DNA from: Alloalcanivorax marinus
GTDB taxonomy: Bacteria; Pseudomonadota; Gammaproteobacteria; Pseudomonadales; Alcanivoracaceae
DNA: 64,000 bases
Direction of reading: 5' to 3'
Assembly (NCBI RefSeq): GCF_016906305.1
Contig: NZ_JADDOL010000009.1
Coordinates: 62,001 to 126,000 of the forward strand
Shown here: positions 22,070 through 33,937 of the stretch, piece after piece
Layout: every line of letters begins with the position of its first letter
How positions within the stretch are numbered: the stretch's first letter is position 1
Notes under the pieces: generated by a model
What the model was told of the DNA's origin: nothing
Database searches by the model: none
Seen by the model: only the letters and a program-made list of their open reading frames with translations
Position numbers and translations under genes: made by a program

Positions 22070-22510
22070 ATGAGTGAAAGCAAAGCGCGCCCGCTGCGCG
22101 ACGAATTCGGCTATCTGTGCCCGGTGGACAGCCGCTGGGCGGACAACGACATCTACGGCCACATCAACAACGTGGTGTATTACAGCTATTTCGACTCCAC
22201 CATCAACCGTTACCTGATCGATCACGGTGGACTGGACATCCACGATGGCGAAGTGATCGCCTATGTGGTCAGCTCCGGGTGCGACTATTTTGAGGCCGCC
22301 GCCTATCCGGACGCGCTCTGCGTGGGCCTGCGCGTGGACAAGCTGGGCAACAGTTCAGTGCGCTATGGTCTGGCGTTGTTTGGGGAGGAGGGCGCCGCCA
22401 AGGCGCTGGGGTTCGTGGTGCACGTGTTCGTGGACCGCGCCAGTGGCCGGCCGGTGCCGATTCCGGAAACGTTGCGCGCGGCGCTGGCGGCGTTGAGCAA
22501 GGCGGATTAG
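22070..22510 (+). CDS. Acyl-CoA thioesterase, 4HBT hot-dog family
   Basis: A 146-residue hot-dog-fold thioesterase. RWADNDIYGHINNVVYYSYFD (core WADNDIYGHINNVVYY, residues about 23-38) is the catalytic block of the 4-hydroxybenzoyl-CoA/YbgC-type family, with Asp in the active site. FVVHVFVDRASGRPVPIPE near the end is also typical. It would hydrolyse an acyl-CoA; the acyl group is unknown. GAGGA seven bases upstream supports ATG 22070. Its stop overlaps the stop of the convergent AraC-type gene by four bases. Confidence 0.85.
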   Translation: MSESKARPLRDEFGYLCPVDSRWADNDIYGHINNVVYYSYFDSTINRYLIDHGGLDIHDGEVIAYVVSSGCDYFEAAAYPDALCVGLRVDKLGNSSVRYGLALFGEEGAAKALGFVVHVFVDRASGRPVPIPETLRAALAALSKAD

Positions 22511-23451
22511 CGCGACTGCCGCCATTCGCTGGGGCTGACGCCGAAGGCCGCCTTGAAGGCGCGGCTGAAGGTGGCGCTGTCGGTGAAGCCGTAGTCCAGA
22601 GCGATGTCCAGAATGCCGCGGTGGGCGTTGTCCGGCGCCGCCAGGGCCTCGCGGATGGCGTCCAGCCGCACCTGGCGGATAAAGCGGCCCGGGGTGAGCT
22701 GGTGCTCTTCGAACAACCGGTACAGGGCGCGCCGGGACACGTGCAGGGCACCGGCCAGTTCGTCCGGGCTGAGCTCCGGATCGTCGATGTGCGCCAGCAC
22801 ATGGCGGTGGGCCACGTCCAGGCTGATGGCGCCGCCGGCCCGTTCCGGGGCGGAGGCGCCGTGCAGCAGCGCGGACAACATCATCTGCACCGCCTGGAAC
22901 ACCGGGCTGGCGCTGCCGCCGGGGCCGTCCGGCTGATCCATCAGCGCCATCACCGCGGCCAGGGCGGCGCGGGCGGTGGTGCGGTCGTTGAGCGTATGGG
23001 CGCAGACCCGCTGGCTGAGCCGTTCCCAGCCGGGAATCGCCTCGTAGGGCAGCATCAGCACGGCCAGCTGGGCGTGGTCCTGCATGGCCAGCTGGTAGGG
23101 GCGGGCGGTGTCGCAGATGGTGACGTCGCCGGTATTGAGCAGGGTTTCCCGGCCATCCTGTTCCACGGCGGTGCGACCGTTCTGCTGCCACATGACCTTG
23201 AGCAGGCCTTCCTCGGCGCGGCGCGCGCCCAGGCCGGTGCGGCGCACCCGGCAGGAGTCGGAGCGGATCACCGCCACCGCCCGGTGGTCGAAGTTGCACA
23301 GCTGCACGTCGGCGCGGAAGTCCTGCTGCTTGTTGGCGCTCATCTCCAGCCAGGGGAAATTGCAGTTGACGAAGTTCTGCCAGGGGCGAAAGCCTTCGAT
23401 CACCTGATGGCCGGGCGAGGGAACCGGGTTGTGACTGCGTATTGCCTGCAC
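22507..23451 (-). CDS. AraC-family regulator, FeaR-like, of the amine-utilisation cluster
   Basis: A 314-residue transcription regulator. The N-terminal 200 residues form an AraC-binding-like sensing domain (NFPWLEMSANKQQDFRADVQ, then LCNFDHRAVAVIRSD) as in FeaR, which activates phenylacetaldehyde dehydrogenase and amine oxidase genes in enterics. The C-terminus has two HTH motifs, SPDELAGALHVSRRALYRLF and DIALDYGFTDSATFSRAFK, ending GVSPSEWRQ. It starts with GTG (23451), with GGAGAG four bases upstream. It is divergent from an aldehyde dehydrogenase and close to the amine dehydrogenase genes, so it is the obvious candidate regulator; the inducer would be an amine or its aldehyde. The gap upstream holds repeats and two palindromes. 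Confidence 0.85.
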   Translation of the reverse strand: MQAIRSHNPVPSPGHQVIEGFRPWQNFVNCNFPWLEMSANKQQDFRADVQLCNFDHRAVAVIRSDSCRVRRTGLGARRAEEGLLKVMWQQNGRTAVEQDGRETLLNTGDVTICDTARPYQLAMQDHAQLAVLMLPYEAIPGWERLSQRVCAHTLNDRTTARAALAAVMALMDQPDGPGGSASPVFQAVQMMLSALLHGASAPERAGGAISLDVAHRHVLAHIDDPELSPDELAGALHVSRRALYRLFEEHQLTPGRFIRQVRLDAIREALAAPDNAHRGILDIALDYGFTDSATFSRAFKAAFGVSPSEWRQSR

Positions 23452-23459
23452 GGTGCTCT

Positions 23460-23506
23460 CCGTTAGGCTGTGGGCCGTTAGGCGACGGGGCCGTCAGGCG
23501 ATGGGG
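23460..23506. repeat. Tandem 15-16 bp repeats in the regulator leader
   Basis: Three units beginning CCGTTAGGC or CCGTCAGGC and ending in a G run lie at 23460-23474, 23475-23490 and 23491-23506, just upstream of the GTG start of the AraC-type gene. They fall in its mRNA leader or promoter. Confidence 0.75.
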
Positions 23507-23514
23507 TCGTTCGT

Positions 23515-23541
23515 GTGACATGCACGGTGCGTGCCTGTCAC
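23515..23541. promoter_or_regulatory. Inverted repeat, candidate operator
   Basis: Eleven-base arms GTGACATGCAC and GTGCCTGTCAC (one mismatch) are separated by GGTGC. It lies in the divergent gap between the AraC-type regulator and the aldehyde dehydrogenase. A protein-binding site is likely; the protein is unknown. Confidence 0.5.
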
Positions 23542-23561
23542 GAAGCGGCCCGGGCCGGCCC

Positions 23562-23590
23562 GTTATTATTCGACTGAGGTCGAATATAAC
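23562..23590. promoter_or_regulatory. AT-rich palindrome, candidate operator or promoter core
   Basis: GTTATTATTCGAC and GTCGAATATAAC are inverted copies apart from one inserted base, with spacer TGAG. This is the only AT-rich island in the 279-base divergent gap, so it may overlap the -10 regions as well as bind a regulator. Confidence 0.5.
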
Positions 23591-23629
23591 AGATTGAAGG
23601 CACCGGACAACAAAGGCGCCGGCTCGCCC

Positions 23630-23663
23630 GGCACGCAGCGTCAACATCTTTGCACCCGCTGCC
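23630..23663 (+). promoter_or_regulatory. 34-bp motif shared with the quinohaemoprotein promoter
   Basis: Starts GGCAC, contains GTCAACA and CTTTGCAC, ends CGCTGCC. It matches 30245-30278 at 29 of 34 positions without gaps. It ends 67 bases before the aldehyde dehydrogenase GTG. Most simply it is the binding site of the AraC-type regulator encoded at 22507-23451. Confidence 0.7.
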
Positions 23664-23730
23664 ATGCGGGCGCGGCGGGCGGCGGCGGACAATGCCAGGA
23701 TCAGAAAAACCGACATCCTGGAGGCATTCC

Positions 23731-25179
23731 GTGACAGCTCAGCGAGGACACTTTATTGCCGGACGCGACGTTCCGGCTTCCGACGGCGCCACCATGAAGG
23801 TGGTCAGCCCGGCCAACGAGACGCTGCTGGCCGAGGTGGCGCGCGGCACCACCGACGACGTGGACGCGGCGGTGGCCGCCGCCCGCGCCCAGCTCGACGG
23901 CGGCGACTGGAGCGCCCTGTCCGGGGACCAGCGCGGCCAGCTGATCAACCGGCTGGCCGACCTGGTGGAGCGCGACGCCGACCTGCTGGCCGACCTGGAC
24001 GCCTCCTGCATCGGTCGCCCGGGCATGGAGCCGCGCCTGCTGGATCTGCCCAACACCATCGCCACCCTGCGCACCTGCGCCGGCTGGGCCGACAAAATCG
24101 AGGGCCGCACCATCCCCACGCCCGGCTACATGGGCACTCCTACCCTGTCCTACACGGTGCGCGAGCCGGTGGGCGTGGTCGGCGCCATCACCCCCTGGAA
24201 CACGCCGTTGATGATCACCAGCTGGAAGCTCGGTCCGCTGCTGGCGGCGGGCTGCACGGTGGTGATCAAGCCCTCCGAGGAAACGCCCCTGTCCGCCCTG
24301 CATCTGGTGAAACTCTGCCAGGAGGCCGGTTTCCCGGACGGCGTGGTGAACGTGGTCACCGGCGAGGGCGCGGTGGTGGGCGAGGCCCTGTGCGTGCACC
24401 CGGACGTGGACAAGATTTCCTTCACCGGCAGCCCGGAAGTGGGCGCGCGCATCCAGACCACCGCCGGCGCCCGCTTCAAGCGCGTGGCTCTGGAGCTGGG
24501 CGGCAAAAGTCCGCAGATCGTGTTCGAGGACGCCGACCTGGACGCCGCCGTGCAGGGTTGCGCCATGGGCATCTTCTTCAACAGCGGGCAGGTGTGCGCC
24601 GCCGGCAGCCGCATTCTGGTACACAACAGCCGCCTGGCGGACTTCGCCGAGCGCCTGGCGGCGGTGGCCGAGGGCATTCAGGTGGGCGACCCCTCCGCCG
24701 GCGAGGTGCAGATGGGGGCCCTGGCCAGCGCCGATCAGAAGGCCAAGGTGGAGGACTACATCCGTCGCGGCGTCCAGGAAGGCGCCAAACTGCTCAGCGG
24801 CGGTGAGATGCCCACCGACAAAGGCTGCTATGTGCGGCCCACGGTGTTCGTCGGCGGCAACGATCTGAGCATCGCCCGGGACGAGATTTTCGGTCCGGTG
24901 GCCACGGTGATCGGCTTCGACGACGAGGCGGACGCCATCCGCATCGCCAACGATACCCGCTATGGCCTGGCCGCCACCCTGTGGACCGGCGACGTGGGCC
25001 GCGCCCACCGGGTGGCCCGGGCGGTGCGCGCCGGCGCCATCGGCATCAACGGCTGGGCGCCCATCGACGCCCACCTGCCCTGGGGCGGCATGAAGTCCAG
25101 CGGCATCGGCCGCGAGGGCGGCCTCAGCGGCGTGCTGGCCTACACCGAGGAGAAAGTGATCACCGTCGTTACCGGTTGA
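23731..25179 (+). CDS. Aldehyde dehydrogenase (NAD(P)-dependent), amine-pathway type
   Basis: A 482-residue ALDH-superfamily enzyme that would oxidise the aldehyde released from an amine (for example phenylacetaldehyde or 4-hydroxyphenylacetaldehyde) to the acid. Visible hallmarks: the cofactor motif VGAITPWNTPLMITSWKLGP, catalytic Glu255 in LELGGKSPQI, catalytic Cys289 in NSGQVCAAGSRI, and EIFGPVATVIGF. The GTG at 23731 is chosen because GGAGG lies six bases upstream and earlier in-frame codons give a non-family arginine-rich extension. It is divergent from the FeaR-like regulator and preceded by the 34-bp motif. A strong terminator follows. Which aldehyde is inferred from context. Confidence 0.92.
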   Translation: MTAQRGHFIAGRDVPASDGATMKVVSPANETLLAEVARGTTDDVDAAVAAARAQLDGGDWSALSGDQRGQLINRLADLVERDADLLADLDASCIGRPGMEPRLLDLPNTIATLRTCAGWADKIEGRTIPTPGYMGTPTLSYTVREPVGVVGAITPWNTPLMITSWKLGPLLAAGCTVVIKPSEETPLSALHLVKLCQEAGFPDGVVNVVTGEGAVVGEALCVHPDVDKISFTGSPEVGARIQTTAGARFKRVALELGGKSPQIVFEDADLDAAVQGCAMGIFFNSGQVCAAGSRILVHNSRLADFAERLAAVAEGIQVGDPSAGEVQMGALASADQKAKVEDYIRRGVQEGAKLLSGGEMPTDKGCYVRPTVFVGGNDLSIARDEIFGPVATVIGFDDEADAIRIANDTRYGLAATLWTGDVGRAHRVARAVRAGAIGINGWAPIDAHLPWGGMKSSGIGREGGLSGVLAYTEEKVITVVTG

Positions 25180-25200
25180 TCCAAGGTCCCTCCACTAAAA

Positions 25201-25226
25201 AGCCCGGCTCAGGCCGGGTTTTTTTT
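25201..25226 (+). terminator. Terminator of the aldehyde dehydrogenase gene
   Basis: Stem CCCGGC / GCCGGG with a four-base loop, preceded by an A run and followed by T8, 20 bases after the stop. Confidence 0.9.
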
Positions 25227-25240
25227 GCTTTCAACTCCCA

Positions 25241-25266
25241 TAAAAAACCCCGGCCGGAGCCGGGGT
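25241..25266 (-). terminator. Terminator of the outer-membrane protein gene
   Basis: Stem ACCCCGGC / GCCGGGGT with a four-base loop; on the minus strand it is followed by T6. It ends the convergent minus-strand unit. Confidence 0.88.
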
Positions 25267-25294
25267 GGCACAACGCTACAAGGTGCGGGCAGCG

Positions 25295-26623
25295 TCAAAA
25301 ACCGAAGGCGACGATCAGCTGGGTGTAGAGGTTGTCGTCGTCGCCGCCGAGCTGGGTGCCGCCATCGGCGGCGGAGGCGTCCGGCTGGTACAGGCCGATC
25401 AGCGGGATGATCGCCAGGTTGGCGGTGACGCCCCATTCCGCGTACAGGTCGAACTCGCGGGCATCCAGATTGACGCCAGCGTCCTGGTCCAGGGTGGCGA
25501 AGTCGTAGGCGAGCAGGCCGATGGACAGGTTTTCCCGGGGCGTGGCGCCGAGAGCGATGTTGTGCACCTTGGTATTGGTGTTGAACGGGCCGGCATAGTT
25601 GGCCGCCACTTCACCCTGGAACCAGGTGCCCAGGCTGCGGCCGTTGCCGTAGAACAGCGGGTCGAAGCCCTCGGAGAAACGGCTGTAGCGATAATGGACG
25701 CTGGGCTGCCAGGGCGCGTCGGCGAAGGTCCAGCCGGCTTCCAGGTACCAGGCGTCCTCGTCGCCCTGGTCCTGATCCTGCCAGGCGTATTCGCCGGACA
25801 GGAACAGATTGTCCACGCCGGCGTCGCCCTGGTAGCGCAGGCTCCAGGTTTCCTCGCCGTCCCGTTGTGGATACAGAAACGCGAAGTCTTCCTCCACATC
25901 GTCCACCTTGATGTAGGTGAGGCCGAAGGTGCCGGCGTCGCCCACGTGTTCCAGGTTGCCGACTTTCATGGCGGCTTCCGCCTGGGCCGGGTTGTCCGAC
26001 TCGATCCACATGGCGTCGCCGCGCCAGCCGCTGTCGCCGCCCAGGCTCAGCACGGCGGTTTTGTCGAACGCCTGGCGGGCGGCCAGATAGTAGGCGCCGC
26101 CCCGGTTCAGGTCGCCGCCGGCGATGCCGTTGCCAAAGTTGAGGGCGTCGCCGGAGATCAGGAAGCCGTCGCCGATCTTGATGGCCTGGCGGCCGGCGGA
26201 GAACGCCAGGCCGTTTTCGCCCAGCGCCGGGAACAGGTCGCCGGAGCGCCAGCCCAGATAAGCGTCTTCCACATCGGTCTCGCGCTCGCTGCCGTCGCTG
26301 AAGCCGGCGGCGTCGCCGTCGTCCCAGGTGCCGCTGCTGAGCGCGTTGACGGCGCCGAACAACTGGCCGCCGCCGAGCTGCTGCTCCAGGGCCAGGCCGT
26401 ATTTCAGGTAGCCTTCCTGCCAGCTGGAGGAGCCTTCGCTTTTGCTGCCGGCGGTGGCGTAGTTTTCCTGGCTGTGGAAGACGCCGCCGACGCCCTCGAG
26501 GGTCAGGTCCAGCCGGGTCTGGTCGTTGGCCACCAGTTCCAGCGCCTGGCTGTGCGCCCCCAGGGCGGTCAGTGAACAGGCAAGCAGCGCCCGTTTCACG
26601 GCTTTTGAGTAAGCGGTGATCAT
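25295..26623 (-). CDS. Outer-membrane beta-barrel protein (alginate-export/porin-like)
   Basis: A 442-residue protein with a signal peptide (VKRALLACSLTALGAHSQA, cleavage near residue 27) and alternating strands throughout, ending in the C-terminal Phe (LIVAFGF) required for outer-membrane barrel insertion. The sequence (WQEGYLKYGLALEQQ, EDAYLGWRSGDLFPALGEN, FSAGRQAIKIGDGFLISGDA) resembles the alginate-export/OprD-like barrels of gammaproteobacteria. It lies between the aldehyde dehydrogenase and the cytochrome c/amine dehydrogenase genes, transcribed with the latter, so it may carry amines across the outer membrane. That role is inference. GGAG precedes the ATG. Confidence 0.82.
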   Translation of the reverse strand: MITAYSKAVKRALLACSLTALGAHSQALELVANDQTRLDLTLEGVGGVFHSQENYATAGSKSEGSSSWQEGYLKYGLALEQQLGGGQLFGAVNALSSGTWDDGDAAGFSDGSERETDVEDAYLGWRSGDLFPALGENGLAFSAGRQAIKIGDGFLISGDALNFGNGIAGGDLNRGGAYYLAARQAFDKTAVLSLGGDSGWRGDAMWIESDNPAQAEAAMKVGNLEHVGDAGTFGLTYIKVDDVEEDFAFLYPQRDGEETWSLRYQGDAGVDNLFLSGEYAWQDQDQGDEDAWYLEAGWTFADAPWQPSVHYRYSRFSEGFDPLFYGNGRSLGTWFQGEVAANYAGPFNTNTKVHNIALGATPRENLSIGLLAYDFATLDQDAGVNLDAREFDLYAEWGVTANLAIIPLIGLYQPDASAADGGTQLGGDDDNLYTQLIVAFGF

Positions 26624-26679
26624 GGTTGTGTCTCCATTCAGGTGAAGCCCGCGCTGGCGGCGCGGGCGGCGGGATCAGC

Positions 26680-27234
26680 TCATCGGCTGTCTCCGTTGTT
26701 GTGGTTGTCGTGGGGCATGCCGTCGTGGATGGCGATGCCCTGGTCGCGCATGCGCTGGATCAGCCGGGCGCGGGTGTCGGGCAGGTTGTGCAGCCGGGTG
26801 GCGCGGATGCGCGCCACTTCGGCGCCGGTGTAGGGCGCCGCGTCTTGCGGGGTGCTGGCGCCGGCCATGCCGTCACGGGCCAGGATCCAGTTGAGCAGCT
26901 CGGCGAGCTGGTCGTTGTCGAGCGCCGCCTGGGCCACGCCGGGCACCCGCACCAGAAATTCCCGGCCGCCCTCCACGCGCAGGAAGTTGCCGACGAACCC
27001 GGTCATGCGCGGCACGTCGTTGCGCGGCGCCCCCTGGCCCTCGGGCAGGTGACAGCCGGCGCACTGCAACTGGTAGTTCACCGCCGGGCTGTAACCGGCC
27101 CGGGACAACGGAATCTGCGGTTGCTCGTTGCCCGGCGCCGGCGTTTGCGACGGGTCCGGCATGGCCCGGGCGTGGACGCCCGGGGCCGCGACGGTGGTCG
27201 CCAGCAGGACGGTGAACAGCAGGCCAGGTCGCAT
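26680..27234 (-). CDS. Periplasmic monohaem cytochrome c of the amine dehydrogenase cluster
   Basis: A 184-residue exported cytochrome c. A signal peptide (MRPGLLFTVLLATTVAAPGVHA) is followed by a haem-binding CAGCH at residues 58-62; Met77 (PRMTGF) is a possible sixth ligand. A long C-terminal extension rich in Arg/His/Asp/Asn follows the haem domain. ATG 27234 gives a normal signal; the gene starts five bases after the light-chain stop, so it is co-transcribed. A likely job is taking electrons from the TTQ amine dehydrogenase, replacing the blue copper protein (azurin or amicyanin) used elsewhere, since no copper protein is encoded nearby. Confidence 0.82.
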   Translation of the reverse strand: MRPGLLFTVLLATTVAAPGVHARAMPDPSQTPAPGNEQPQIPLSRAGYSPAVNYQLQCAGCHLPEGQGAPRNDVPRMTGFVGNFLRVEGGREFLVRVPGVAQAALDNDQLAELLNWILARDGMAGASTPQDAAPYTGAEVARIRATRLHNLPDTRARLIQRMRDQGIAIHDGMPHDNHNNGDSR

Positions 27235-27239
27235 GCGTC

Positions 27240-27767
27240 TCAACCGGCCTTGGCCACGCCGCGGATCACCGCCACGGTGCAGTTGTAGACGTTGGCGTCG
27301 GCGCCCAGGCACCAGTTGATGTCGTTGTTGTTGAACGGCCGGTACATGGGTTCCTCGCTGTCGTTGCGGGTACAGGCGCACTGGGCGCAGCTGTGCTTAC
27401 CGCAGCAATCGTTGTAGGAAATGATGTAGTCGATGCCGTCCGCCGGATTACGGCAGGTGCCCACCCAGGTCACCTCCGAGCCCTGGGTGCCCGGCGGGCA
27501 GCTGTTCACGGTGCCGCCACAGCAACTGCAAAGAAAGCCGTCCACGGAGCAGTAGCGCCAGTAGTCACAGCTGGTGGGGTCACCGGGGTCGCCGGCTTTC
27601 GGCGATTCGGCGGCCAGTGCCTTGGCGGTGCGGTCCACCGGCAGCAGCACCGGCATGGCGGCGCCGGCCACCAGGAAGGAGCCGAGGCGGCCCAGGAAGC
27701 GCCGCCGGGAGGTGGTGCTGGCCACGTGGCGCGTGGAGCGCTCGAAGAATTGATCGAGGAATTTCAT
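27240..27767 (-). CDS. aauA: TTQ amine dehydrogenase light chain (aromatic-amine type)
   Basis: A 175-residue catalytic small subunit of a periplasmic quinoprotein amine dehydrogenase. The cofactor tryptophan tryptophylquinone would form from Trp101 (TWVGTC) and Trp152 (INWCLG), 51 residues apart as in known enzymes. Asp120 (SYNDCCG) and Thr164 fall at the spacings of the catalytic Asp and Thr of aromatic amine dehydrogenase. DGFLCSCCGGT and ISYNDCCGK favour the aromatic-amine over the methylamine enzyme. Fourteen cysteines lie in the mature domain, matching a disulfide-rich fold. The N-terminus carries a twin-arginine signal (TSRRRFLGRLGSFLVAGAA). The gene sits between the maturation gene and the cytochrome c gene, two and five bases away. 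Confidence 0.93.
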   Translation of the reverse strand: MKFLDQFFERSTRHVASTTSRRRFLGRLGSFLVAGAAMPVLLPVDRTAKALAAESPKAGDPGDPTSCDYWRYCSVDGFLCSCCGGTVNSCPPGTQGSEVTWVGTCRNPADGIDYIISYNDCCGKHSCAQCACTRNDSEEPMYRPFNNNDINWCLGADANVYNCTVAVIRGVAKAG

Positions 27768-27769
27768 GG

Positions 27770-28405
27770 TCAGGCGCTCCCTTTTTCGGTGGGCAGGTTG
27801 TCACCGGGATGGTGAATGTGCGGGGCCTGGCCACGGAGATAATCCTGCAGGGTGGCGGCGCCCAGGAATTCGGTTTCGAACAGGCTGTCCAGGTGCTCCC
27901 GGGAGTTCACCAGGCCCTTGGCCTTGAGCGTGCCTTCGCGGTCGATCAGCACCGCGTAGGGCAGTTTGCCGATCTGGTAGGTCATGCCCACCTGCGGGTC
28001 CACCACGTAGTGGGAACGCTCCAGTTTGAAGTCGGCGATGATCTTGTCCTGCTCGGCCATATCGCCGTCGCTGACGTAGATCACCTCCAGGTCGTCCCGG
28101 GAACGCTCGATGGCGCGCACCGCCGGCAGCAGGGATTTACAGATCGGGCAGGTGGGCGACAGGAAGAACAGCATCTGCGCCCGTTCGCCGGAGTAGCCCA
28201 CGTTCACCGGGCGGCCCTGGCGGTCCTCGGCGGTCAGTTTCGGCGCCGGCTGATTCACCGCCACGCCCTTGTCCACCATCAGTGCCCCGGCCGGGGCGAT
28301 ACGGGCGTGCAGCACGCCGATCTGGCGGATCAGGCCCACCACCACCAGGGCCATGGCGATCAGCAGACACCAGAGAAGTACATTGGAAACGATCAAGGCT
28401 TGCAT
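27770..28405 (-). CDS. aauD: MauD/AauD-like thiol-disulfide protein for light-chain maturation
   Basis: A 211-residue membrane-anchored thioredoxin-like protein. An N-terminal helix (LLWCLLIAMALVVVGLI, residues about 10-26) is followed by a periplasmic domain with the redox motif Cys86-Pro-Ile-Cys89 (FFLSPTCPICKSLLPAV). In methylamine dehydrogenase systems MauD and MauE are needed to form or isomerise the many disulfides of the light chain. Position between aauE and aauA, two bases before the light-chain ATG, fits that role. AAGGGGA precedes the start. Confidence 0.9.
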   Translation of the reverse strand: MQALIVSNVLLWCLLIAMALVVVGLIRQIGVLHARIAPAGALMVDKGVAVNQPAPKLTAEDRQGRPVNVGYSGERAQMLFFLSPTCPICKSLLPAVRAIERSRDDLEVIYVSDGDMAEQDKIIADFKLERSHYVVDPQVGMTYQIGKLPYAVLIDREGTLKAKGLVNSREHLDSLFETEFLGAATLQDYLRGQAPHIHHPGDNLPTEKGSA

Positions 28406-28430
28406 GGAAGTCCCCTTATTGTGTGTTGGG

Positions 28431-28970
28431 TTATCGTCCGGACAGACCGAGCAGACGCGGCTGGTTGGCCAGCCACACCTCGATCGCCGCGTACAGCAAA
28501 ACGGTCACCGCCGTGGCGGCCAGTACCACGAAGCCGTCGAACACGCCCAGCGCGCGGGGCGCGGCGGGGGCGGCGGCCATCAGGGCCAGCCCGGCGAGCA
28601 GCAGGTTGCGCAGCAGCAGCCGTGGATGCAGCGGCTGCGGGGCGCCGGGGCCGGCGCAGCCGCAGTCCAGATCGCGGCGGCCCCGGCTCAGGTTGATGCC
28701 GATGGCGGCGGCGTACAGCACCACCAGGGCCAGCGCCGCCAGGGCCGCCGGGCCGCGCGTGGCGGGCCACAGCAGCGCCAGCGCCAGGGTGCCTTCCAGC
28801 AGCGGCAGGGCGCGCGCCGCCGGGCCATGCAGGGCGCCGGGCAGCAGCCGGTACTCGGCCACCTGGCGGCGGAACCAGGCCGGCGCGCGCAGCTTGTGGC
28901 TGGCGGCGCTGGCCAGGATCACCGCCAGGGAGACGGCGCCGGCGGCGGTCAGAATCGGGTCCAGGCTCAT
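28431..28970 (-). CDS. aauE: MauE/AauE-like membrane protein
   Basis: A 179-residue integral membrane protein with four hydrophobic segments and the conserved DLDCGCAG near residues 80-87, the cysteine pair typical of MauE (DoxX/DsbD-like family). It is thought to supply or remove electrons for MauD during light-chain disulfide formation. ATG 28970 is chosen because AGGAGG lies just upstream and gives the family N-terminus SLDPILTAAGAVSLAVIL; a longer frame to 29129 would overlap the heavy-chain gene and is rejected. It starts eight bases after the heavy-chain stop. Confidence 0.88.
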   Translation of the reverse strand: MSLDPILTAAGAVSLAVILASAASHKLRAPAWFRRQVAEYRLLPGALHGPAARALPLLEGTLALALLWPATRGPAALAALALVVLYAAAIGINLSRGRRDLDCGCAGPGAPQPLHPRLLLRNLLLAGLALMAAAPAAPRALGVFDGFVVLAATAVTVLLYAAIEVWLANQPRLLGLSGR

Positions 28971-28978
28971 AGCGCCTC

Positions 28979-30124
28979 CTAGTGGGTGATGACCAGGGTC
29001 GGGGTCTTGCTGACGCCGTCCATGGTGTCCACGTATTCGCCCTTGGTCAGGTCGAAGATGTCCAGGCCGCCTTCCACGTTGGTGCCCAGCAGCAGCGGCT
29101 TGTCGTCGGAGGTGGCGTTGAGGCTCCACACCAGGCTGGGGGTCTCCAGGGTGCCCACCTTCTTGTGGGTTTTGAGATCAAACGCCCAGATGGTCTGGCT
29201 CGGGTCTTCCCATTTGTGCGGGGCGTGATCCGGATGCATCAGCACGTACAGACGGTTCAGCGCCGGCGCCACCGCCATCAGCTGCCAGCCGCCCGGGGCC
29301 CAGCCGTCCTGGCGTTCCTGCTCGGTGGTCAGCCACCACTCGGGGAGCTTTTTCGGCTTCTTGCCGGACAGGTCGACGCCGCGCACCCGGCCTTCGGTGG
29401 TCACGAAGTAGTAGGTGTCGCCGTCCCCGGCGGCCCGCTCCACCAGTTTTTCCTTCTCCGGGTCGAAGAAGGGGGTGGCGTTGCGGTCCACTTCCTGGCC
29501 GCTGTCGTCCAGGGTGATCATCTGCAGCTTGCCGTCGCCGCACAGGGACGCGAAGCGACGCTTGCCCACCGGGTAGTTGAGAATGCAGCCGGGAATGGCC
29601 AGCTCGTTGACCACCTCCTGCTTTTGCGTGTCCACCACGGTCACCGAGGTGGCCGGCGTGAAGTTGTAGATGTACACGAAGCGATCATCGGCGCTGGTGC
29701 TGAGGCCGTAGCGCTCGGTCAGCGTGGAGGCGCGCTTGGTGGGGATTTTCACTTCCCACTTCGGCGACAGGCTGGAAGTGTCCCAGGCGGTGAGCACATC
29801 GGTGCGTTTACCGCGCACATAGCGCTCGAAGAAGATGTCCGCGGTGTACACGGTCTTCTGGTCGTGGGACAGCACCGCCGGCGCCGCGCCGCCGGTGCTG
29901 AGCATGCCGAGCACCTTGCGCTGGTCCGGATCGACCACCACCACCCGGGTGGCCACCATGTTGTTGAATTCGAAATCGACGATGTAGCTGCGGTGCGGGT
30001 CCGGCGGGAACGGCAGGGTGGTGTTCTGCCCGAGCTTTTCCACCGGCAGTTGCGCTTGGGCGGTGGCGCTCACGGCCGCCGCCGCCAACAGCAAGCCCGT
30101 GCACAGGGGTCGTGAAAGTCGCAT
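28979..30124 (-). CDS. aauB: TTQ amine dehydrogenase heavy chain
   Basis: A 381-residue exported beta-propeller, the large subunit of the alpha2-beta2 amine dehydrogenase; it shapes the substrate channel to the TTQ of the light chain. A signal peptide ([15 protein letters not shown]) precedes the start of blade 1, [20 protein letters not shown]. Recognisable propeller strands include [20 protein letters not shown] (family-typical HMH/DxHK-like stretch) and [17 protein letters not shown]. It is the first gene of a tight minus-strand operon aauB-aauE-aauD-aauA-cytochrome c. The order matches the published aauBEDA/mauBEDA arrangement as I remember it. It is divergent from a quinohaemoprotein gene. 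Confidence 0.93.
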
Positions 30125-30190
30125 AGCTGCTCCGGTTGTAGGTGTGGTTATGGGCTGAGTGTGTGCCTCGCCGCCTCGGGTTGCATGGTT

Positions 30191-30200
30191 CTGAGTGCCA
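30191..30200 (-). promoter_or_regulatory. Half-site TGGCACTCAG upstream of the amine dehydrogenase operon
   Basis: On the minus strand this ten-base site lies 67 bases before the aauB ATG. It is nearly the inverse of TGGCACTGAG at 30244-30253 (one difference, plus orientation), the left end of the 34-bp motif. Two oppositely oriented half-sites would let one activator serve both divergent promoters. Confidence 0.45.
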
Positions 30201-30244
30201 ACCGCTTGTTATTTCTTGCCAGGGATGGGCCGCCGGGACCGGCT

Positions 30245-30278
30245 GGCACTGAGGGTCAACAACTTTGCACTCGCTGCC
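30245..30278 (+). promoter_or_regulatory. 34-bp motif upstream of the quinohaemoprotein gene
   Basis: Second copy of the motif at 23630-23663: 29/34 identical, sharing GGCAC, GTCAACA, CTTTGCAC and CGCTGCC at identical spacing. It ends 86 bases before ATG 30365. No other feature explains the conservation, because neither site is coding. Confidence 0.7.
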
Positions 30279-30364
30279 GGGCCCCGGGCGGACGGGATCA
30301 TCGAGAATGTCCCGAGCCCTCCCTCAAGGGGCCGGACCGCACAACAACAATAGCGAGGACCGAC

Positions 30365-32209
30365 ATGACCACAACCCTTCACGCCGGCGCCCGGGCGCTG
30401 GCCGTCGCCTGCCTGCTGCACGCCTGCACCTTCTCCGAACAGGCTTCGCCGCCGCCCACCGGGGCGGCCCTGGATGCCACCCGGCTCAACGCCGCCGCCG
30501 GCGAACCCGGCAATTGGATGACCCACGGCGGCACCTACGCGGAGCAGCGTTTCAGCCGCCTCGACCGGATCAACCGGGACAATGTGGGCCGGCTGGGTCT
30601 GGCCTGGACCTACAAGCTGGACATCGACCGGGCGGTGGAGGCCACGCCCATCGTGGTGGACGGCGTGATGTACACCACCGGCCCGTTCAGCATTGTCTAC
30701 GCCCTGGACGCGCGCAACGGCGAACTGCTCTGGAAGTACGATCCCGGGGTGGCCAAAACCCGCGCCCGGGACGGTTGCTGCGGCCCGGTGAACCGCGGCG
30801 TGGCGGTGTGGAAAGGCAAGGTGTTCGTGGGCGCCTATGACGGCCGGCTGATCGCCCTGGACGCGGCCAGCGGCAAGCCGGTGTGGAGCGTGGACACGCT
30901 GATCGACGCCAACCGCAGCTACACCATCACCGGCGCCCCCCGGGTAGTGAAGGGCAAGGTGCTGATCGGCAACGGCGGCGCCGAGTTCGGCGTGCGCGGC
31001 TACATCACCGCCTACGACGCGGAAAGCGGCGAGCAGGCCTGGCGCTTTTTCACGGTGCCCGGCGATCCGGCCCTGCCGCCGGAGAACGAGGCCATGGCCC
31101 GGGCCCGCGACACCTGGTTCGGCGACCAGTACTGGAAGCTGGGCGGCGGCGGCACGGTGTGGGATTCCATGGCCTATGACCCGGAGCTGGACCTGCTCTA
31201 TATCGGCACCGGCAACGGCAGCCTGTGGAATCGCCAGGCCCGTTCGGCGGGCAAGGGCGACAACCTGTATCTGAGCTCCATCGTGGCGCTGCGCCCGGAG
31301 ACCGGGGAGTACGTGTGGCACTATCAGACCACGCCCGGCGATCAATGGGACTTCACCGCCACCCAGACCATCACCCTGGCGGACCTGGAGATCGGCGGCG
31401 AAACCCGCCAGGTGCTGATGCAGGCGCCCAAGAACGGGTTCTTCTATGTGCTCGACCGGCGCACCGGCGAACTGCTTTCCGCCGAACCCTACGCCCCGGT
31501 GAACTGGGCCGACGGGGTGGACCCGCGCACCGGCCGGCCGCGCATCAATCAGGAGGTGGCGGACTGGAGCCAGGGGCCCCGAGTGCTGGTGCCCGGCCCG
31601 CTGGGCGCGCACAACTGGATGCCCATGGCGTTCAGTCCGGACACCGGCCTGGCCTACATTCCGGTGCAGGAAGCGCCGGCCCTGCTGGTGCCCGACAACG
31701 AGGCCACCTTCAAGGGCCGGGGGCGCTTCCAGGTGGGCAGCCAGCCGGTGGAACTGCCCGAGGACCCGGCCACCCTGGCGAAGACCGTGGCCGCCTACAA
31801 GGGCCGGTTGGTGGCCTGGGACCCGGTGGCGCAAAAGGAAGTGTGGCGGCAGCCGTTCCCCAGCATCTGGAACGGCGGCGTTCTGGCCACCGCCGGCGGC
31901 CTGGTGTTCCAGGGCAACGTGAACGGCAAGGTGGCGGCCTACGGCGCGGACGACGGCGAACCGCTGTGGGAGGCGCCGGCCAACACCGGCGTGGTGGCCG
32001 GCCCGGTGACCTACGAAGTGGACGGCGAGCAGTACGTGACCTTCATGGCGGGCTGGGGCGGAGCCTTCCCGCTGGCGTTCGGCGGGCTGGCCTCCAACGC
32101 CAAGGTGGTCCCGGAGGCGCGCATTCTTACCTACAAGCTGGACGGCACCGGGACCCTGCCGGCGCCCCGGCGCGTGGCCCGGGCCCTGCCGGACACCTAC
32201 CGGCGCTGA
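30365..32209 (+). CDS. PQQ-dependent quinohaemoprotein dehydrogenase, catalytic domain (frameshifted gene)
   Basis: A 614-residue eight-bladed propeller dehydrogenase of the type II quinohaemoprotein alcohol dehydrogenase group. PQQ-pocket features are visible: adjacent Cys138-Cys139 (RDGCCGPV), [21 protein letters not shown]-like blade motifs, [13 protein letters not shown], and [12 protein letters not shown]. The N-terminus looks like a lipoprotein signal (LLHACTFS). It would oxidise a periplasmic alcohol or related compound. The reading frame ends ALPDTYRR-stop exactly where the family continues into a cytochrome c domain, which is present in the -1 frame (32197-32490). Divergent from the aau operon and preceded by the shared 34-bp motif. 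Confidence 0.87.
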
Positions 32210-32490
32210 CCGCCGACGCGGACACCCTGGACCGGGGCCGCGACCTGTACAACGACAACTGCGGCATCTGCCACGGCTTCAGCGCGCTGGGGGGCGGTGT
32301 GATCCCGGATCTGCGCTATCTGGATGAGCAGGGTCACCAGGCGTTTCCCGCCATCGTCGCCGGCCTCTACGCGGACAAGGGCATGCCGTCCTTCGCCGGT
32401 GACCTGAGCCTGGAGCAGGTCGAGGCGATCCATCAATACCTGATCAAACGCAGCGGCGATCTGCGGCGCGAGCTGCAAAGCGCCCCCTGA
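32197..32490 (+). pseudogene. C-terminal cytochrome c domain of the quinohaemoprotein, out of frame
   Basis: About 97 codons in the -1 frame relative to the upstream gene encode [20 protein letters not shown], haem motif CGICH, GGGVIPDLRYLDEQGH and the axial-ligand region KGMPSFAG, ending RRELQSAP. This is the usual C-terminal domain of type II quinohaemoprotein dehydrogenases. It has no ATG/GTG start, ribosome site or signal peptide, so it cannot be a separate cytochrome gene. One missing base, or a -1 ribosomal shift, would fuse it to the 614-residue part into a protein of about 710 residues, the normal size. A GC-rich stretch with CCCC and CCCGGGCCC lies just before the break. Confidence 0.8.
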
Positions 32491-32503: not shown

Positions 32504-33760
32504 TCAGCGCGGCTGCCAGTGGGCGGCCGGGCGGGCCAGGCGGCGGGCCGCGTAGGCCGCCGGGTCGGCGGCGCCGTCGCCGTCGGAGAAGTACAGTTCG
32601 GCGACGAAATAGAACTCCTGGCCGAACGGAATGCGGTCCAGGGCGAAGCCCACATTGGGCCGCTGCCCGGGGAAGCGTTCCGGTTCGTCGTCCAGGGACG
32701 GGTCGTCCTGGTAGATAAAGCGGGCGCCGGTATCGAAGCCCTCGGCGAAATACAGCCGCGCCAGCAGATCGAAACCGTCGCCGGTGCCGAACCACAGCCA
32801 GTTGTCGGTGGGCACCGGGGTATCGACCATGGCCTGTTCGGTGTCGTCCAGACGGCCGTCCACACGGGCCTCCCTGTCGCCGGTCCAGCTGGTGCGCAGG
32901 CGCGCGCCGGTCAGGTTGTTGCCGTCCACGGTGGCCCGGGCGCCGGGTTCGCGCAGCACGGTGGCGGCGAAACCGGGCAGGGTCAGGCGGCTGTGCACCG
33001 CCACCGCCCGGTCGCGGACCAGAAAGTAGTTGTGCAGCTTGAGCACCGGCAGGCCGGCCACCCGCACCCGGGTGGTCACATAAGCGCGGGTGGCCAGGGG
33101 GCCGTCCACCACCTGGCGGATTTCCGGGTCCAGGTTTTCGTTGGTCAGGGTGAGGCGGGCGCCGGCGCTGAACACCCCGGCGCTGAGGCGCAGCTTGAGG
33201 CTGTCCAGCAGGTTCAGCGGCTGGCCGTCCGGGCCGGTGCGGCCGGCGTAGAAGAAATCCCCCCAACGGAACAGGTTGTCGTCCTCGAACGCCAGCTGGA
33301 ACGCCGGGGTGCGCAGGGCCAGCGGCTCCCGTCGCAGGCGCTCGGGGGCGTGGCGGGCCGGCGGCCGCCGGGCCAGGGCGTAGAGGCTGCGGGCGTGTTC
33401 GCCGGTGCCCACGGTAAGCACTCCGAGCACCTCTTCGGGCAGTGGCGCGGGGGCGGCCCGGGCGGTGTCCGGCAGGTCCACCAGCAGGTGATCCTCGGCG
33501 GCGATGCGGTCCGCCGGCTGCGAGCGTTCGGCGTCGCCGTCCTCCTCGAACCAGGGCGCGCGGCCCTGGCTCCAGGGCAGCCACTGGTGGGGCAGGCTGA
33601 CGAAGTCGCCGTCCCGGTACACCGCCAGATCCACGGTGGCCGGGTCGCGGCCGGCGAGCCCGGCGATGGCCGGGCCCTGCAGTTCGACGATGGCCGCCGT
33701 GGCCGGGGCGCCAAGCAGCGCGAGGGTGAGCAGCGTGAAAATACGAAGGAGGGTGAGCAT
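32504..33760 (-). CDS. Secreted protein of unknown function
   Basis: A 418-residue protein with a clear signal peptide (MLTLLRIFTLLTLALLGAPATA) and a long beta-rich mature part. I recognise no family with confidence. Visible elements: FQLAFEDDNLFRWGDFFYAG, TRVRVAGLPVLKLHNYFLVR, DNWLWFGTGDGFDLLARLYF and FGQEFYFVAELYFSDGDG; there is a bias to aromatic and Asp/Gly residues, as in carbohydrate-active or outer-surface sandwiches. ATG 33760 has AGGA five bases upstream; another Met two codons earlier is possible. It is convergent with the quinohaemoprotein gene, 13 bases apart, and is preceded by a 200-base gap that holds only a hairpin. Confidence 0.7.
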   Translation of the reverse strand: MLTLLRIFTLLTLALLGAPATAAIVELQGPAIAGLAGRDPATVDLAVYRDGDFVSLPHQWLPWSQGRAPWFEEDGDAERSQPADRIAAEDHLLVDLPDTARAAPAPLPEEVLGVLTVGTGEHARSLYALARRPPARHAPERLRREPLALRTPAFQLAFEDDNLFRWGDFFYAGRTGPDGQPLNLLDSLKLRLSAGVFSAGARLTLTNENLDPEIRQVVDGPLATRAYVTTRVRVAGLPVLKLHNYFLVRDRAVAVHSRLTLPGFAATVLREPGARATVDGNNLTGARLRTSWTGDREARVDGRLDDTEQAMVDTPVPTDNWLWFGTGDGFDLLARLYFAEGFDTGARFIYQDDPSLDDEPERFPGQRPNVGFALDRIPFGQEFYFVAELYFSDGDGAADPAAYAARRLARPAAHWQPR

Positions 33761-33937
33761 GGGCATCCTGGCACCGGTGGTTCCGTTACCGGACAGGCTG
33801 AGGCAAAGCGCCGGCCCGGTCGAGGCCGGGCGGCGGGCGGTCAATGGCTGCGGAGCCGTTGGCGAGGTATCGGTCTCCAGCGGGGCCGCTCAGGTGCGAT
33901 CTCCAGCGTTGGGCCGGAGGGTCGCGGTGGGGGAGGT

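Follow-up and report, generated by a model that had tools for sequence, protein, structure and literature searches.

A tryptophan tryptophylquinone amine dehydrogenase operon probably lies within a FeaR-type regulon in Alloalcanivorax

Introduction

Several described systems can be compared with a locus at positions 22507 to 32490 of a 64,000-nucleotide stretch of an Alloalcanivorax genome (the window), which holds an operon for an amine dehydrogenase of the tryptophan tryptophylquinone (TTQ) type together with genes for a FeaR-like regulator, an aldehyde dehydrogenase (ALDH), and a pyrroloquinoline quinone (PQQ)-dependent alcohol dehydrogenase. The aau cluster of Alcaligenes faecalis encodes aromatic amine dehydrogenase (EC 1.4.9.2); its gene order was reportedly given by Chistoserdov in 2001, who is also said to have found the cluster to lack mauG. 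The window locus resembles it in the heavy chain-MauE-MauD-light chain order, in a monohaem cytochrome c gene downstream, in the TTQ residues, and in having no mauG in the cluster, but differs from it in that its enzyme falls in a separate clade and comes with a FeaR-type operator, a porin, and linkage to FeaR. The mau cluster of Paracoccus denitrificans has the same MauB-MauE-MauD-MauA order, whereas it also has MauR, amicyanin, MauF, MauJ, MauG, NapG/NapH-like proteins, and a light-chain insertion, and its substrate is methylamine.

In Escherichia coli, FeaR activates feaB and tynA (PMC4640556). The E. coli feaR-feaB-tynA-paa island shares with the window a divergent pair of a FeaR-type regulator and a phenylacetaldehyde-type ALDH, the same operator repeat, and the paa pathway, which is adjacent in some Pseudomonas relatives of the locus and elsewhere in the window genome. 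It differs in its amine-oxidizing enzyme, as TynA is a copper/topaquinone oxidase to which the TTQ dehydrogenase of the window, accompanied by a cytochrome, is unrelated, and in its regulator, of which the window protein is a divergent relative. The pea system of Pseudomonas putida U takes phenylethylamine through phenylacetaldehyde to phenylacetate (PMC3644233); it exemplifies this route in pseudomonads, but it employs an unrelated three-subunit cysteine tryptophylquinone quinohaemoprotein amine dehydrogenase.

When the window locus is placed against these systems, it is likely not a textbook aau cluster but a TTQ operon within a FeaR-type regulon, with a probably dead PQQ part. We regard it as quite likely, on the strength of the comparisons below, that the locus is an island for the catabolism of phenylethylamine-type amines under FeaR control, with a TTQ dehydrogenase from a clade of its own in the place of E. 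coli TynA.

The operator repeat and its distribution

A direct repeat with a spacing of 21 bp emerged from the comparison of promoters among sister species. The resulting operator pattern has just three matches in the 64 kb, with 0.5 expected, and these stand 5' of the ALDH, heavy-chain, and PQQ genes, each on the matching strand; because the pattern was derived from the same promoters, this count is not an independent test. Within a 26-kb stretch of E. coli, the relaxed form TGNCA-N16-TGNCA is found at three places, namely, 5' of feaB, 5' of tynA, and inside paaG, and the window locus carries the operator repeat of the feaB/tynA type, which would place it in a FeaR regulon. The ALDH-promoter operator is kept in A. 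profundimaris and A. marinus, the closest relatives of the window genome, within an otherwise diverged intergenic region. In both species, the FeaR-ALDH pair is on one contig and the TTQ operon on another, and the operator is kept at both promoters. The predicted operators would be bound by the FeaR-like protein of the window.

The relaxed repeat was then sought in the 300 bases that precede the heavy chain across 85 loci of the clade to which the window enzyme belongs (see below), with near-identical promoters removed for the non-redundant counts. It is present in 74 of the 85 loci (42/52 non-redundant; shuffled mean, 0.4) and in none of 39 non-redundant promoters (40 loci) from other TTQ lineages, among them the aau-type promoters of Pseudomonas aeruginosa plasmids, Cupriavidus, and Burkholderia. 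As the clade loci share kinship, the 42 matches are not 42 independent events, and more weight falls on the strict separation from the other TTQ lineages. The repeat or a close variant also stands upstream of the start of the outer-membrane barrel gene in 25 of 37 loci, and at the cytochrome start, taken as a negative control, it occurs in 4/85 loci, with 3.9 expected. In the Marinobacter loci that have no heavy-chain site, the barrel and ALDH genes stand before the heavy chain, and two of these loci carry the site before the barrel.

Two further observations concern individual elements. The element at the PQQ promoter (30244 to 30270) is nearly a copy of that at the ALDH promoter (23629 to 23655), and in sister species the PQQ gene directly follows the ALDH gene; the PQQ promoter element may be a duplicate left by rearrangement. 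The operator matrix also gives a good score (17.1 bits) at 25266 to 25291 on the plus strand, just 3' of the ALDH stop codon and near the terminators.

Gene neighbourhoods, regulator, and aldehyde dehydrogenase

For the neighbourhood counts, a stretch of about 9 kb was fetched to either side of each of the 85 loci. A FeaR-like gene lies near 36 of them and an ALDH-family gene near 51, a generous count, since about 23 of these 51 matches are less than 36% identical and some are PaaN-like. The Pseudomonas loci have a true FeaR, 42 to 49% identical to that of E. coli, and a FeaB-like ALDH with 52% identity to E. coli FeaB. Nine Pseudomonas loci show strong matches to PaaX, PaaY, PaaN, or PaaG within the stretch, beside a FeaR that is 45 to 49% identical to the E. 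coli protein, and eight of the nine also have a FeaB-type ALDH. Judged by its predicted genes, this neighbourhood is the E. coli feaR-feaB-tynA-paa layout with a TTQ operon replacing tynA. The window genome itself has paaZ and paaA-E on contig 34. Given the operator shared with E. coli feaB and tynA and the occurrence of FeaR, FeaB-like ALDH, and paa genes together in Pseudomonas, the TTQ enzyme most likely replaces TynA within a FeaR regulon for phenylethylamine. In 21 Pseudomonas loci, among them L141 (4895-6445), a PAS-domain histidine kinase gene is also seen shortly 5' of the heavy chain.

The regulator of the window has 62% identity to its TTQ-linked orthologue in A. balearicus and A. 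xenomutans. The FeaR-type assignment made in an earlier, sequence-only reading of the window holds as far as an AraC/FeaR-like protein is concerned, but the family score is subthreshold in the window (Table 1), while it reaches 373 to 375 bits in two Pseudomonas loci and 252 in Marinobacter. The ALDH is 40% identical to E. coli FeaB and 46% identical to a FeaB-like ALDH from a Pseudomonas locus with linked paa genes; its score stays below the phenylacetaldehyde dehydrogenase (StyD/FeaB) equivalog cut-off, yet this is its best-scoring family. As in sister species, its translation may begin further downstream, at a codon near 23731.

The TTQ operon and its family placement

All six minus-strand genes of the operon are open, have ATG starts, and are tightly spaced, in the intact order heavy chain-MauE-MauD-light chain-cytochrome-barrel. 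As terminator-like hairpins stand back to back between the ALDH and barrel genes, the operon is most simply these six genes. Both TTQ subunit families (PF02975 and PF06433) are present, together with the TTQ and catalytic residues, which identifies a TTQ amine dehydrogenase, and the light chain bears a signal of the twin-arginine translocation type (SRRRFLG). In PDB comparisons, the heavy chain matches aromatic amine dehydrogenase (2.7e-50) and methylamine dehydrogenase (MADH; 1.4e-40), and it has 31% identity to the A. faecalis protein. The cytochrome c, with a single CxxCH, is found in 85/85 clade loci, all of its own Pfam matches being subthreshold. A homologue of the barrel is present at 40 of the 85; the window barrel has no family above the cut-off, just a weak Alginate_exp match, and its model (predicted local distance difference test, 66.7; middling) finds AlgE as the best PDB match (E value, 3.5e-12; template modelling score, 0.58 to 0.60), with porins also matched. 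The TTQ operon is real and intact; it probably works and lies within the FeaR-type regulon.

Light-chain residues Trp101, Asp120, Trp152, and Thr164 are where the sequence-only reading had put them and align with the A. faecalis enzyme, but their spacing (19/32/12) is common to nearly all aligned non-MADH TTQ light chains and is not specific to aromatic amine dehydrogenase; a two-residue light-chain insertion is special to MADH. An aromatic amine dehydrogenase label drawn from this spacing was consequently dropped. Light and heavy chains were concatenated for a tree (55 rows, 485 columns), in which the window enzyme clusters with enzymes of Alloalcanivorax, Marinobacter, Pseudomonas, and Plasticicumulans with a support of 100. 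The A. faecalis enzyme falls in another clade with the enzymes of Paracoccus, the P. aeruginosa plasmid, and the second copy of genome G183 (support, 99 to 100), and the MADHs of P. denitrificans and Methylobacterium form yet another group, apart from both. The tree thus places the window enzyme with neither the methylamine dehydrogenases nor the aau clade, and its identification with the known aromatic amine dehydrogenase is not upheld. When topology was constrained, the approximately unbiased test rejected neither the window clade with aromatic amine dehydrogenases (P = 0.26) nor that with MADH (P = 0.17), so that the separateness of the window clade is shown and not its sisterhood.

Proposed function and alternative explanations

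The amine probably crosses into the periplasm by way of the AlgE-like barrel, where the TTQ enzyme, whose heavy and light chains would be folded with help from MauE and MauD, would oxidize it to aldehyde and ammonium. Electrons would pass to the adjacent monohaem cytochrome c and then to an oxidase, and consequently no H2O2 would arise at the amine-oxidation step. The aldehyde would reach the cytoplasm and be oxidized by the ALDH, and the resulting acid could enter the paa pathway encoded on another contig. The FeaR-like protein would sense the amine and activate the TTQ operon and the ALDH gene through the TGGCA repeats with their 21-bp spacing. The transport and electron routes are deduced from the genes, and phenylethylamine and tyramine are suggested as the substrate class by the regulator, operator, ALDH, and paa linkage rather than by the active site. 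The earlier proposal of one FeaR-type switch over amine uptake, deamination, electron transfer, and aldehyde oxidation gains from the operators at three promoters, the E. coli repeat, and the FeaR/FeaB/paa linkage in Pseudomonas, but loses its PQQ part.

Some observations weigh against such a function. Judged by the roles of the A. faecalis pocket residues, the pocket is only partly like that of the aromatic enzyme, with the Asn before the second TTQ Trp kept and Phe169 replaced by Tyr, and the tree would allow either the aromatic or the methylamine enzymes as sister of the window clade. The window regulator has just 26% identity to E. coli FeaR, and its score does not reach the NCBIfam FeaR cut-off. 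In its first form, the repeat was derived from promoters of the window and its sister species and only afterwards tested on other sequences, and the ALDH-promoter site is imperfect (CGGCA...TTGCA).

The pocket substitutions, the divergent regulator, the separate clade, and the heavy-chain identity of 31% would also suit a TTQ enzyme for another primary amine (aliphatic, diamine, or benzylic), with the operator belonging to a related regulator that responds to another inducer, and most Pseudomonas loci have no paa genes inside the fetched 9 kb; nevertheless, the cassette in relatives has a true FeaR, a FeaB-like ALDH, and paa genes as neighbours, and the operator is the same as that of E. coli tynA and feaB, which makes such an enzyme improbable. 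It could alternatively be speculated that FeaR, ALDH, and the PQQ enzyme form an operon for the oxidation of an alcohol such as 2-phenylethanol and that the TTQ operon merely landed inside it, as the three genes adjoin one another in A. profundimaris and A. marinus, with no TTQ operon between them. One operator type at all three promoters speaks against this, as does the FeaR orthologue that adjoins the TTQ operon in a differing arrangement in A. balearicus and A. xenomutans, and we give this explanation still less credence. An alcohol and an amine of one series would share their aldehyde, and both readings could therefore be partly true. The Pfam and NCBIfam names, and a MauD above its cut-off, point to MADH itself, but the light and heavy chains score below the MADH equivalog cut-offs (TIGR02659/TIGR02658: light, 180.8 < 196.85; heavy, 181.9 < 454.45), the enzyme has its own clade, and none of amicyanin, MauF, MauG, and MauJ stands beside the window TTQ operon, while all four are present in the P. 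denitrificans locus; MADH is accordingly a very improbable identity.

The PQQ gene presents a separate question. Compared with the intact genes of A. profundimaris (710 amino acids) and A. marinus and with a remnant in genome G312, one base near 32196 is missing in the window alone; the gene stops at 32209 and its cytochrome c domain lies in a different frame, so that the locus is not complete as had been listed and a propeller and cytochrome c in one polypeptide, the mark of a type II quinohaemoprotein alcohol dehydrogenase, is not found. PqqE is present in the A. xenomutans group, and none scores above the cut-off in the window genome or in G044, G204, G308, and G312. A working quinohaemoprotein in this genome is doubtful, and the enzyme is probably not functional here, contrary to its earlier inclusion in the pathway. 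An assembly error that hides a working quinohaemoprotein alcohol dehydrogenase of the pathway is possible though unlikely: a single base is concerned in a draft of 56 contigs, and apart from this the propeller is intact, with 85% identity to sister species, but PqqE is missing from the genome and its near relatives, even if PQQ could be taken up from outside, and little of the gene is left in the near sister G312.

If the FeaR-controlled amine island is the correct explanation, the island has kept its switch, ALDH, and lower pathway while its first enzyme was swapped for an unrelated one with another cofactor, and the electron route was swapped too, with a cytochrome chain instead of oxygen and peroxide. 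Many pseudomonads would then gain a testable amine-degrading role that is now masked by the label "methylamine dehydrogenase."

TTQ maturation

The cassettes lack mauG, as a reading frame of suitable size with two haem sites occurs in only 2 of the 85 loci. The PF03150 profile, with a score of 153 bits for P. denitrificans MauG, has no match in the cassette-bearing Alloalcanivorax genomes G183 (one contig), G081, and G307, and a MauG query finds nothing at an E value of 0.01 in these three or in G192 and G095, single-contig cassette-bearing genomes of other genera that were searched by this query only. G183 has two TTQ dehydrogenases, one of the aau type and one of the window clade (C1:175704 and 554496; L051 and L052), and no MauG-family protein. 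The single MauG-family gene of the window genome (C1:109830) lies far from the locus, beside a TonB receptor gene, and its product has a Tyr at the position corresponding to MauG Tyr294; a role as necessary TTQ maturase is not supported, because related cassette-bearing genomes lack the family. On balance, we lean toward the view that the clade may build TTQ without any MauG-family di-haem enzyme, with MauD, MauE, and the cytochrome as the only conserved cassette partners. The genome-wide absence of the MauG family is the new point beyond the reportedly mauG-free aau cluster, and such genomes open the old question of TTQ formation outside MADH to direct experiment.

Locus layout and rearrangement

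The products of the locus were identified by profile searches (Pfam and NCBIfam) and PDB comparisons (Table 1). The reading frames are those listed before, and the AraC/FeaR-like, ALDH, barrel, cytochrome c, light-chain, MauD, MauE, and heavy-chain genes are confirmed, but the quinohaemoprotein gene is frameshifted. E values from 1e-49 to 1e-236 exclude chance as the source of the Pfam and PDB matches.

Table 1. Features of the locus, with positions in the window
Feature	Position	Strand	Basis
FeaR-like AraC-family regulator	22507..23451	-	NCBIfam FeaR 159 bits (cut-off 199); Pfam AraC_binding_2 and HTH_18
FeaR-type operator, imperfect, 5' of ALDH	23629..23655	+	pattern match
Aldehyde dehydrogenase, phenylacetaldehyde-dehydrogenase-like	23692..25179	+	Pfam Aldedh 556 bits; StyD-type 706 bits (cut-off 800)
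Terminator-like hairpins, back to back, of ALDH (+) and TTQ operon (-)	25197..25266		
Outer-membrane barrel, AlgE-like fold, last TTQ operon gene	25295..26623	-	structure model
Periplasmic monohaem cytochrome c, adjoins light chain	26680..27234	-	one CxxCH
TTQ light chain	27240..27767	-	Pfam Me-amine-dh_L 1.6e-49; PDB 2agl, 3c75
MauD-like thiol-disulfide protein	27770..28405	-	TIGR02661 204.8 bits (cut-off 188.6)
MauE-like membrane protein	28431..28970	-	Pfam MauE 1.6e-27
TTQ dehydrogenase heavy chain, first operon gene	28979..30124	-	Pfam Me-amine-dh_H 5.8e-51
FeaR-type operator TGGCA-N16-TGGCA, 97 bases 5' of heavy-chain start	30195..30221	-	pattern match
FeaR-type operator 5' of PQQ gene	30244..30270	+	pattern match
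PQQ-dependent alcohol dehydrogenase, propeller domain, lipoprotein-like signal	30365..32209	+	TIGR03075 640 bits; PDB 1yiq 3e-236
Cytochrome c domain of PQQ gene, out of frame	32206..32490	+	Pfam Cytochrome_CBB3 3.5e-10

The gene order ALDH-TTQ-PQQ of the window contrasts with that of two sisters, A. profundimaris and A. marinus, in which FeaR, ALDH, and the PQQ gene are contiguous on one contig without the TTQ operon between them, and the TTQ operon lies on another contig near the homologue of the gene at 32504 and an AMP-ligase gene. In four relatives, the left-side thioesterase gene (to 22510) directly adjoins the 32504 gene as an empty site (three junctions read), and G312 and G044 have deletion scars in which fragments of FeaR and the PQQ gene are left. 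With parts split, absent, or scarred in relatives, the window order is not general: the locus is an assemblage that has been rearranged and lost within the genus, and only in this genome do the parts form one "complete" locus. A single insertion of the TTQ operon may lie behind this, although the order differs and contigs of the window draft end at the matching breakpoints.

The flanks that border the split halves of A. profundimaris sit at two contig ends in the draft of the window genome (G000; C33 end, 15936; C37 end, 13059), which suggests rearrangement at a repeat. In A. profundimaris, a gene for a MarR-type regulator (L054:6493-7122) separates the TTQ operon from the 32504 homologue; the window has the PQQ gene at this place. 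The gene flanking the island in the window (32504 to 33844) encodes a secreted-looking protein of no family and has 75% DNA identity to sister species, compared with 88% for its neighbours.

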